Shown here: piece by piece, positions 20,108 through 23,733 of the stretch
Layout of the letters: each line of letters opens with the position of its first letter
Numbering within the stretch: position 1 is the first letter of the stretch
Source: a virus
Direction: 5' to 3' (one strand)
Length of the DNA stretch: 23,733 bases
IMG/VR virus record: IMGVR_UViG_3300047318_000615
Location: 1-23,733 of that record
Program-made: the position numbers and the translations under genes
Notes under the pieces: model-generated
Seen by the model: only the letters and a program-made list of their open reading frames with translations
Told to the model about the DNA's origin: nothing
Database searches by the model: none

Positions 20108-20241
20108 GGACCCTCCTCGGGGTGCAGCTCCAGTGTCGCAGGGCAAGGGTGCACGCGCCCCGAACTGGCCCCGCGTACTGAAGCCTTGGCCTCGATAAGA
20201 TGCCATATCCGGCACAGAATAATGACCGTTATCCTGTAACC
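20108..20241. promoter_or_regulatory. Divergent promoter region between the moron candidate and integrase
   Basis: The 134 bases hold the ribosome site of the leftward gene at one end and, at 20192-20241, a patch clearly richer in A/T than the surroundings. A TATCCT (20230-20235) lies six bases before the integrase ATG at 20242, where it could serve as a -10 for a leaderless message; a matching -35 is not convincing. It lies in a small inverted repeat GTTA (20228-20231) / TAAC (20237-20240). Neither ATG 20200 nor 20242 has a ribosome site. Confidence 0.45.
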
Positions 20242-21273
20242 ATGGCTTCGCTTCCGGCAGTTCCCCAAACGACCTTCCTTGAACCGACCGCCCCGCCGCC
20301 GCTCACCCTCCGAGGGACCCCGCCCGCGTCATCCCCGAGCGACCTCCTCGACCTGCTCCGCACAGCAGCAGCCTCCCCGACCGTCGTCGAGGCGACCGCC
20401 ACCTGGCTCGCCCGCCGTAAGTCCGGGCATAGCCAGACCGCCTACGCCAAGGACGCCGGCTGGTGGCTGGCCTGGTGCGCTCACGGCACAGTCAACCCGG
20501 CCAACGCCCGCGCTCTGCACGCCGACCAGTACGCCACCGCCCTCGCCGCCGCCGGCCTCGCCAAGTCCACGCAGGCCCGCCGCCTCGCCGCCGTCTCCGC
20601 CTGGTACGCCTACCTGGCCCGCGCCGAAGCAGCCGACCGTAACCCGTTCCTCGACATGGACCGGCCCTCGGTCTCGGCTGACGATTCCCCGACCCAAGGC
20701 CTGACCCCTGCCCAGCTCGGCGCAGTCCTCAAGCATGCGCGCGAGAACGAGAGCGCCCGGACCTACGCCCTCCTCGCGGTCCTCGCCACAACGGCCGCCC
20801 GCATCGGCTCAGTCCTGGGTGCCACCATCGGCGCCCTCGGACACGACGAGGGGCACCGCGTCATACGACTCAAGACCAAGGGCGACCACTCCAAGCGGGT
20901 CGTCCTGGTGCCCCTCGCCGTACAGGCCGTCGAGGCATACCTGGCCGGACGCGAGAACACCGACCCCGCCGCACCCTTGTTCGCCACGAGCTCCGGCCGC
21001 CGCCTGGACGAACCGGCCGCCTTCCGCACCCTGCGCCGAGTGGCCAAAGCCGCAGGCATTCCGCACGCCGAACGGCTGTCGCCGCACTCGCTGCGCCACT
21101 CCTACGCCACCACGCTGCTGAACAAGGGGGTGCCGCTGGCAGACGTACAGGACGCGATGGGGCACGCGGACCCACGGACCACCCGCCGCTACGACCGCGC
21201 CGCCGGCGCCCTGCACCGCTCGCCGTCGTACAGGATGCAGGAGGAGTTGACCCGCGCCATGGACGCCGAGTAG
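20242..21273 (+). CDS. int: Tyrosine site-specific integrase
   Basis: A 343-residue (from ATG 20242) tyrosine recombinase that would insert the phage genome into, and with a helper excise it from, the host chromosome. Residues 48-130 form the SAM-like core-binding domain (ATATWLARRKSGHSQTAYAK, LAKSTQARRLAAVSAWYAYL). The catalytic domain carries the full set: R187 (AARIGSVLG), K213 (LKTKGDHSKR), H282 and R285 (SPHSLRHSYAT), H308 (AMGHADP) and Y317 (TTRRYDRAAG). No truncation is seen, so the enzyme should be active. An upstream ATG at 20200 would add 14 residues. There is no ribosome site, so leaderless translation is possible. No tRNA gene is next to it. Confidence 0.93.
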   Translation: MASLPAVPQTTFLEPTAPPPLTLRGTPPASSPSDLLDLLRTAAASPTVVEATATWLARRKSGHSQTAYAKDAGWWLAWCAHGTVNPANARALHADQYATALAAAGLAKSTQARRLAAVSAWYAYLARAEAADRNPFLDMDRPSVSADDSPTQGLTPAQLGAVLKHARENESARTYALLAVLATTAARIGSVLGATIGALGHDEGHRVIRLKTKGDHSKRVVLVPLAVQAVEAYLAGRENTDPAAPLFATSSGRRLDEPAAFRTLRRVAKAAGIPHAERLSPHSLRHSYATTLLNKGVPLADVQDAMGHADPRTTRRYDRAAGALHRSPSYRMQEELTRAMDAE

Positions 21274-21417: not shown

Positions 21418-22014
21418 ATGAACACCACCGCAGCAGCCGCCCAGGCCGGCGTCACCGTCGCCACCATCCGCGCCTGGGCCCGCCGCGGCGTCATCGCCGC
21501 CACCAAAACGGCCGGCCGCTGGATCCTCGACGCCGCCTCCCTCGCCCACCGCATCGCCATCGGCATCCTCAAGCGCCGCACCCAACGAGAGGCCCCCGTG
21601 ACCGAAGTAACCCCGGCCGCCGACCGCAAAGCGGTGCGCGCCGCCAACAAGGCAGCCGCCAACGAAGCCCGCACCCGCGTCCTCGCCGCCATCACCGCGG
21701 CCGGACTGCCGCTCCTCTCCGGCACCGACAAGCAGATTGCCTGGGCCGAAGACATCCGGAGCAACCTGATCGAGGCCGCGCTCCACAACCTCGCCGGCAC
21801 CCACCTCGGCGTTCACTACTCCCTCACCAACACGCTCACCGAGGACCCGCTGCGCACCTCCCGCATTCCCGGGCTGCGCCCCTGGGACACCGGCAGCGAA
21901 TACGCCTCCGAAGCCGACCTCCTCGCCGCACTCACGACCGCCGTCACCTACCAGGGCGCCGGTGCAGCGCACGAGGACCGCACGCAGGCCGCGTGGTGGA
22001 TCGAGCACCGATGA
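21418..22014 (+). CDS. Helix-turn-helix protein with a KQIAWAEDIR domain
   Basis: A 198-residue protein with a strong ribosome site. Residues 4-38 make a MerR/excisionase-like helix-turn-helix (AAAAQAGVTVATIRAWARRG followed by KTAGRWILDAASL with the usual wing strand), a type common in Streptomyces phages and integrative elements. A basic linker (LKRRTQREAP) and an Ala/Lys/Arg helix follow. At 101-114 is SGTDKQIAWAEDIR, a short motif I know from many bacterial and phage proteins of unknown function, here at the head of a helical C-terminal domain. It overlaps the next gene by four bases. It is a good candidate for a transcription regulator binding the palindrome at 21364-21390, or for an excision factor; both are inferences. 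Confidence 0.75.
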   Translation: MNTTAAAAQAGVTVATIRAWARRGVIAATKTAGRWILDAASLAHRIAIGILKRRTQREAPVTEVTPAADRKAVRAANKAAANEARTRVLAAITAAGLPLLSGTDKQIAWAEDIRSNLIEAALHNLAGTHLGVHYSLTNTLTEDPLRTSRIPGLRPWDTGSEYASEADLLAALTTAVTYQGAGAAHEDRTQAAWWIEHR

Positions 22015-22629: not shown

Positions 22630-23106
22630 GTGCCTGCTGCACCCGAGATCCTGTGCAAGTTCTGCAAGCCAGCCATGCCGCCCGGGCGCGAATATGGGTA
22701 CGCCACGATCGGCGGCAGGTACCACCACCCCGGCCAGTGCCGGGAAGTCGACACGCCATGGATCACCATCAGCTACGACGGAACCGACGACCACGTCGAC
22801 CTGACCAGGGACTTCAACCCCTACGAACTCGCGGGCCTCGCCATGCGCGACGAGGTGTACGAGCCTGAGGGGCAGCCCCTGCCGGAGAACACGCCCGGAT
22901 ACAGGCGGTTGGACAACGGCTGCGTGGAGGCGATCGTCGTCATCGTCCGCGGCGAGACGCCGAAGGAAATCGAGCCCGGCCACCTGGAAGGGGACGCCGA
23001 CAGGAGCTGGGAAATCCACTACCGAGTACGGCCAGCCACCCCAGAAGAAGCCGCAGGCGTCCTGATCGACGAGGTAGAAGGCGCCTTCGACGGGCGGGTG
23101 AGCTGA
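22630..23106 (+). CDS. Small Cys/His protein, function unknown
   Basis: A 158-residue protein read from GTG 22630 with GAGG (about 22619-22622) as ribosome site. The frame is open upstream but that stretch is the previous gene. The N-terminus carries C9 and C12 (LCKFCKP) and then H32, H33 and C37 (RYHHPGQC), a probable zinc knuckle. The rest is acidic and mixed (WITISYDGTDDHVDLTRDFN, VEAIVVIVRGETPKEIEPGH, SWEIHYRVRPATPEEA). No family is recognised. A similar CxxC...YH...C order occurs in the leftward gene at 19808-20107. It is the last rightward gene before a long hairpin. Confidence 0.7.
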   Translation: MPAAPEILCKFCKPAMPPGREYGYATIGGRYHHPGQCREVDTPWITISYDGTDDHVDLTRDFNPYELAGLAMRDEVYEPEGQPLPENTPGYRRLDNGCVEAIVVIVRGETPKEIEPGHLEGDADRSWEIHYRVRPATPEEAAGVLIDEVEGAFDGRVS

Positions 23107-23112
23107 CCCCCA

Positions 23113-23160
23113 CATGCAAGCGATGCCCCGCCCAGGATCAGTGGGCGGGGTATCTGCATG
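23113..23160 (+). terminator. Long composite hairpin ending the rightward genes
   Basis: The inner stem CCCCGCCCA (23126-23134) pairs with TGGGCGGGG (23142-23150) over a seven-base loop, and an outer pair CATGCA (23113-23118) / TGCATG (23155-23160) extends it. It begins seven bases after the upstream stop. No T-run follows, as is common for strong GC-rich terminators of streptomycetes. Confidence 0.65.
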
Positions 23161-23176
23161 TCAGCGTACCGACCCG

Positions 23177-23199
23177 TTGTCAGTACCTGCCGCTAGCCT
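23177..23199 (+). promoter_or_regulatory. Near-consensus PafBC/RecA-NDp DNA-damage promoter motif
   Basis: TTGTCAGTA (23177-23185), eight bases, then TAGCCT (23194-23199). The published mycobacterial RecA-NDp motif is TTGTCRGTG-N8-TANNNT, bound by the PafBC activator in the LexA-independent damage response. The fit has one mismatch (A for the last G) and the right spacing. It faces rightward, toward the hairpin at 23253-23298 and the ends of two leftward genes; no good rightward gene follows. Confidence 0.5.
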
Positions 23200-23245
23200 G
23201 TTCGCATCCAGCAATCCAGCCGGATTTGAGGCGGGCTGCCTCGCT

Positions 23246-23298
23246 AAAAGGTTCCGCCCCACCGGACCCCCATGGGGGACAGCGACCGGCGGGGCGGA
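23246..23298 (-). terminator. Intrinsic terminator of the leftward gene pair
   Basis: On the minus strand TCCGCCCCGCCGG (23298-23286) pairs with CCGGTGGGGCGGA (23265-23253) with one mismatch, and TTTT follows at 23249-23246. It begins seven bases after the stop at 23305. The loop itself contains a perfect palindrome, CCCCCATGGGGG (23267-23278). Confidence 0.75.
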
Positions 23299-23304
23299 CG
23301 CACG

Positions 23305-23559
23305 TCAGGCCTCGGGTGGTGCCGGATGCAGGGCCTTCGTCACGACGTCCTTCTCGAGCTTGAACCGGTTCTCCAGGCCGTACTTCGCCGCATGCTCCGT
23401 GACCGCGTTATGGAAAGCGTTCGCCGCCTCCAGCCACGGCCGCCACCGCTCCGCCGAGTACGGACCCTGCTGCGCTTCGATACGCGCCTTCTCGCTGGTC
23501 AGCTTCAGCTCGACTAGTCGCTGCCGCGCCGTCGCTTCGTCTACCTGTTCGTCTACCAC
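23305..23559 (-). CDS. Small helical protein, function unknown
   Basis: An 84-residue protein on the minus strand, read from GTG 23559 with AGGA about six to nine bases upstream. It is helical and charged: VDEQVDEATARQRLVELKLT, SEKARIEAQQGPYSAERWRP, WLEAANAFHNAVTEHAAKYG, then FKLEKDVVTKALHPAPPEA. The third codon positions are strongly G/C, which argues that this strand is the real one. No family is recognised; the pair with the next gene resembles small conserved genes of Streptomyces phages and integrative elements. An intrinsic terminator follows. Confidence 0.75.
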   Translation of the reverse strand: MVDEQVDEATARQRLVELKLTSEKARIEAQQGPYSAERWRPWLEAANAFHNAVTEHAAKYGLENRFKLEKDVVTKALHPAPPEA

Positions 23560-23568
23560 GACCGGATC

Positions 23569-23733
23569 CTAGGCGGCGGGTGTGACAGCGGCCCGCATCG
23601 CCGCAGCCCACTCCTCGAGGAGCTCGCCGTACCGCGCCGTGTCCGCCCCGCCCGCGGCGACCAGCGCCCGAATCTCCGCGTTGATCTCCGCGAGCGGGCG
23701 CGCGGGGACAGGGCCGGCAGGGGTGGGGGACAT
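23569..23733 (-). CDS. Very small helical protein at the window edge, function unknown
   Basis: A 54-residue protein on the minus strand starting at ATG 23733, the last base of the window, and stopping at 23569, nine bases before the next leftward gene. The N-terminus is Pro-rich (MSPTPAGPVPARPLAEINAE) and the rest forms an Ala/Glu helix (IRALVAAGGADTARYGELLE, EWAAAMRAAVTPAA). Codon use is GC-biased, and similar short proteins are familiar from streptomycete mobile elements. The promoter lies outside the window. It is probably co-transcribed with the 23305-23559 gene. Confidence 0.65.
   Translation of the reverse strand: MSPTPAGPVPARPLAEINAEIRALVAAGGADTARYGELLEEWAAAMRAAVTPAA

Follow-up and report, generated by a model that had tools for sequence, protein, structure and literature searches.

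The right end of the phage record studied here raises the question of what a promoter of the kind found at actinobacterial DNA-repair genes does when it points into a stretch in which no credible rightward protein gene follows. The window, i.e., the whole stretch of DNA that was analysed, is a 23,733-base virus record whose rightward genes encode a portal, a capsid, a tape-measure protein, and an integrase; the gene at 583-2211 is terminase-like by its position and its matches to other phages, a family hit being absent. The presumed host, on the basis of plasmid, genome, and motif matches, is a Streptomyces. Two further rightward genes lie between the excisionase-like gene and the leftward pair gene1 and gene2, and the element under study (23173-23311, the unit) sits before this pair (Table 1). 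The initial annotation had proposed a DNA-damage promoter leading to a short RNA of about 95 bases or, alternatively, to antisense transcription through both leftward genes.

Table 1. Predicted features at the right end of the window.
Feature	Position	Strand	Remarks
Integrase	20200-21273	rightward	window right end
Excisionase-like/MerR-like DNA-binding gene	21418-22014	rightward	directly 3' of integrase; weak matches
Strong hairpin	23117-23158	+	z -5.8; between rightward operon and unit
RecA-NDp/PafBC-type promoter	23177-23199	+	-26 element TTGTCAGTA, N8 spacer, -10 TAGCCT; aligned with relatives
Predicted small RNA, ~93 nt	23206-23298	+	first base A, 7th position after -10; consensus of units
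Hairpin 1 region (approximate limits)	23211-23226	+	ATCC/GGAT pairing in minimum-energy fold; equivalent stem pairs by other sequences in relatives
Extra hairpin GAGGC-GGGCT-GCCTC (approximate limits)	23229-23245	+	common only to window and Streptomyces G076 unit
Terminator-like GC hairpin without U-tract	23253-23298	+	able to serve both strands; same position in other units
gene1, 84 aa	23305-23559	-	convergent with predicted RNA; no known family
gene2, 54 aa	23569-23733	-	no known family

The promoter, whose full sequence on the plus strand is TTGTCAGTACCTGCCGCTAGCCT, shows the single mismatch to TTGTCAGTG-N8-TAnnnT and the exact spacing originally reported. In particular, the -26 element agrees with TTGTCRGTG at eight of nine bases, A replacing G at motif position 9, and the 8-base spacer CCTGCCGC is followed by a -10 that fits TAnnnT. 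The chance expectation per window, obtained from shuffles, is 0.02 at up to one mismatch and 0.31 at up to two; a search for the motif elsewhere in the phage, as had been advised, returned this sole match even when two mismatches were allowed. The suggested transcription start near 23206 fits as well, since the seventh base after TAnnnT is an A in 62% of the related units described below, and host genes without a leader begin about as far from their -10.

In Streptomyces the exact motif occurs in 13-37 copies per genome, where the reversed control gives 0-1 (eight genomes: G001, G009, G011, G029, G046, G051, G069, and G076). An inspection of 30 sites placed it before recA, ung, dnaX, a rarA-like gene, dinG, and further helicase genes, the gene names being read from translations, without assignment by a tool; the start codon of recA lies 7 bases after the -10. 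RecA-NDp promoters were reported upstream of S. coelicolor recA and of a UV-inducible gene (PMC5087735), and mycobacterial PafBC works at a -26 element (PMC11804915). Since the motif precedes Streptomyces repair genes and agrees with the published RecA-NDp/PafBC sites, the element at 23177-23199 is, by sequence, a PafBC-type promoter, and this assignment of type is well supported. An initial search with the M. smegmatis PafBC motif is reported to have found no conservation in S. venezuelae (PMC9380542); despite that report, repair genes do stand behind the motif in the Streptomyces genomes considered here. This suggests that the genus has a repair regulon of PafBC type, a matter left open by that study.

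The limits of the unit emerge from comparison with other replicons. Positions 23173-23311 align with a locus of the Streptomyces genome G076 at 89% identity (117/132), with a score of 148 against at most 34 for shuffles; the homology covers the unit only, both flanks being unrelated, and the neighbour there is gene2, without gene1. The plasmid NZ_CP108555 carries gene1 and, adjoining it, the 23117-23158 hairpin, the unit being absent. Because G076 shares the unit only and the plasmid has the neighbours without it, the unit is, as judged from these alignments, a module bounded by its own edges. When the plasmid (L002, 2940-3010), which lacks the unit, is compared with window 23117-23311, a TTGTCAGT remnant is seen between the hairpin and the stop of gene1; a deletion could have been made possible by the GTCAG repeats that lie at either edge of the unit.

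The unit has its own promoter and terminator, is free of an open reading frame, and is conserved as a block, as expected of a small-RNA gene. The initial claim that no rightward protein gene is credible downstream agrees with the finding that both leftward genes have homologues, in synteny: where the gene order is visible in other phages, late genes and integrase are followed by the unit and by leftward gene1 and gene2. Pfam, PHROGs, and NCBIfam yielded no family for gene1 or gene2; gene1 reaches 82% DNA identity in Streptomyces plasmids, homologues of gene2 occur at 75 viral loci and in 59 of 81 Streptomyces genomes, and in the viral contigs searched neither gene1 nor the gene at 22630-23106 had a close relative. 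A partial PafBC-like element, CTGTCACAC-N8-TAGGAT (window 23566-23588, minus strand), lies 6 bases 5' of the GTG start of gene1, and suggests that gene1 may be a leaderless damage-responsive gene. The idea of a conserved peptide within the unit was given up, because start codons and reading frames vary among units.

About 100 related units, differing in version, were found mostly in phage contigs. When 2.9 million viral contigs were searched for the promoter together with a GCCCCG...CGGGGC hairpin, 96 stretches matched, and 2 did so once the -26 block had been scrambled. The 105 loci fetched by gene2 homology, independently of the motif, contained 63 motifs, where the reversed control had 0; most of these motifs belonged to window-like units, the remainder being leaderless promoters of gene2 or of other genes. 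Relatives found through the integrase have the same promoter, a conserved core, and the hairpin. A promoter-free search with one RNA core recovered four viral and two Streptomyces loci, each preceded by the promoter, whereas the remaining 11 genome matches had no promoter and were chance-like. The strict motif is present in 25 of 30 phage contigs (20-93 kb, chosen for holding a unit), in nearly all of those exactly once, at the unit. That the motif arose by chance in GC-rich intergenic DNA, for which its one mismatch to the consensus may speak, is hardly credible; it is refuted by the unit-bounded homology, and the 63:0 and 96:2 controls likewise exclude what had been termed unlikely from the outset. 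The same homology, the roughly 100 relatives, and the 96:2 ratio support the short RNA of about 95 bases, both in its direction and as the outcome of transcription.

Other searches returned little: the exact-core pattern matched only once in 296 Streptomyces genomes because this core is subgroup-specific, and BLAST of the DNA sequence of the RNA against phage and plasmid records gave chance matches only, so that the relatives either have diverged beyond the reach of BLAST or are missing from those records. Rfam had no match at gathering score for the window and, for eight related loci, only sub-threshold matches, all outside the units. At seven loci (L077, L082, L093, L102, L107, L118, and L140), gene2 homologues and some neighbours are leaderless behind PafBC-type promoters.

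As regards structure, the large hairpin at 23253-23298 folds as claimed, and the window RNA falls in the subgroup with the extra hairpin. Taken as a whole (100 nt), its stability is only modestly above that of shuffles (z -1.5), so that thermodynamics alone proves little; conservation decides. The 5' part of this RNA does not exceed shuffles in stability (z -0.18); the pre-terminator part of 47 units, not all of them independent, has a mean z of -0.98 (t -5.5 against dinucleotide shuffles). In hairpin 1, for which the window also allows the alternative pairing AATCC-AGCC-GGATT, the stems of relatives vary on both sides with pairing kept, from CAACA/TGTTG to GCATTC/GGATGC around the same inner loop; further compensated stems are CCGAC/GTCGG versus CCGGC/GCCGG and CAGC/GCTG versus CAAC/GTTG. 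In 35 of 97 units, against 1.9 in shuffles, stems of differing sequence enclose a UGGC(U) loop, and pair counting in one subgroup of seven sequences was only mildly above shuffles. The hairpin region was also aligned with MAFFT (A5), but this alignment ignores structure and was left out of the pair counting. From these comparisons the RNA body is hypervariable across the family, and its first hairpin folds and covaries.

These data bear on the proposal that the promoter is functional and the short RNA a by-product, the hairpin being a plain terminator of the leftward genes. The position of the hairpin directly 3' of the gene1 stop and the poor conservation of the RNA body across the family are in keeping with it; the covariation of hairpin 1, the conserved loop in relatives, and the movement of the unit as a block with its own edges among different neighbours make it improbable.

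The gene context differs among the units: the next gene is convergent in 44 of 104, as in the window, a same-strand gene with a ribosome-binding site lies downstream in 26, and 34 were not classed by the simple gene rule employed. In most resolved units of the convergent class the hairpin is kept just 5' of the convergent stop codon; in one set, 21 of 72 units have this codon 9 nt past the CGGGGC arm. The 3' tail beyond the hairpin (about CGCTGCTGTCA) is partly common to the convergent and same-strand contexts. At loci L006, L010, and L004, the TAG/TAA of the unit's -10 apparently also serves to stop translation of the gene before it, and the STRPGVVGG-like C-terminus of that gene overlaps the -26 element.

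Antisense transcription through gene1 and gene2 upon damage, the other outcome considered at the beginning, would suit the convergent arrangement of the genes and a hairpin that, without a U-tract, makes read-through possible; it is nevertheless less likely, because in most resolved units of this class the hairpin ends shortly before the stop codon of the convergent gene, and this gene varies among phages, being gene1, gene2, or another. This possibility appears highly improbable.

The main rival to a trans-acting RNA is a leader role in some phages, in which the unit would be a damage-inducible leader or attenuator whose hairpins control read-through, the downstream gene having been lost or replaced in the window. 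The 26 units in same-strand context, closely 5' of a ribosome-binding site and a gene that is often of the VDDLVQFLRxRLDEDE type, fit a leader better than a free RNA, and the hairpin and tail are kept in both gene contexts. On the other hand, the next gene is convergent in the window and in the 44 units, where attenuation would have no object; the downstream genes belong to several unrelated types, and a same-strand gene with a ribosome-binding site is not found directly downstream in the window. The leader reading is considered unlikely.

The induction of prophages is commonly linked with RecA and LexA. The favoured reading, with a probability of roughly 0.6, is that the unit is a phage RNA gene whose damage induction would be LexA-independent and whose product would be a trans-acting regulatory RNA at prophage induction. 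According to this model, 23173-23311 would be a self-contained RNA gene of a temperate Streptomyces phage: DNA damage would generate single-stranded DNA and activate host PafBC, which would let the housekeeping polymerase start at 23177-23199, as is established for mycobacteria. The resulting structured RNA of ~93 nt would begin near 23206, end at the 23253-23298 hairpin just before the gene1 stop, and act in trans during prophage induction, its target being a transcript of the phage or the host, or else a protein; in other phages, where the unit precedes a same-strand gene, it could also serve as an attenuating leader.

A trans regulatory RNA is the most likely product because the RNA body is hypervariable while the architecture and the damage promoter are fixed. 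This combination suggests either a partner that is not the same in every phage or selection that favours difference. Complementarity of the RNA to the phages' own genomes showed no excess across 19 records, in a test that a short seed would escape, and was mildly raised in two of them (G312 and G326), about the level of chance; no target is therefore proposed. A wider view, offered tentatively and with less confidence than the favoured reading, is that Streptomyces phages share an RNA module, open to exchange, that picks up the LexA-independent PafBC damage signal of the host and passes it to the phage by way of a hypervariable structured RNA; it may be standalone in some phages and a leader in others.

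Several known systems resemble parts of this arrangement. The RecA-NDp/PafBC promoters of actinobacterial repair genes such as recA and SCO6735 share the -26 TTGTCRGTG, the 8-base spacer, and TAnnnT (PMC5087735, PMC11804915), as well as a start about 7 bases past the -10, and stand before Streptomyces recA and repair genes; they drive host protein genes, whereas the window promoter heads a noncoding phage unit. The enterobacterial prophage small RNAs PreS, 24B_1, and IsrK (PMC12197685) are likewise short phage RNAs tied to induction or to phage-host balance; their hosts are enterobacterial and Hfq has a part in some of them, in contrast to the PafBC-type driver of the unit, and no sequence relation is claimed. 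The noncoding RNAs of extrachromosomal mycobacterial prophages (PMC7157519) are, like the RNA predicted for the window, actinophage RNAs, and are expressed in the prophage; they adjoin parABS and support replication, the deleted regions being 400-500 bases, whereas the window has an integrase. A PafBC-driven phage RNA was not described in the literature searched, which was covered in part; phage small RNAs and PafBC promoters are each known, and their union in a widespread module appears to be new.

In many actinophages, then, a PafBC-type promoter that is mostly the only one of its kind heads a predicted RNA and not a protein. If the reading is true, about 100 natural variants become available for target finding, and the second actinobacterial damage pathway becomes linked to phage biology.
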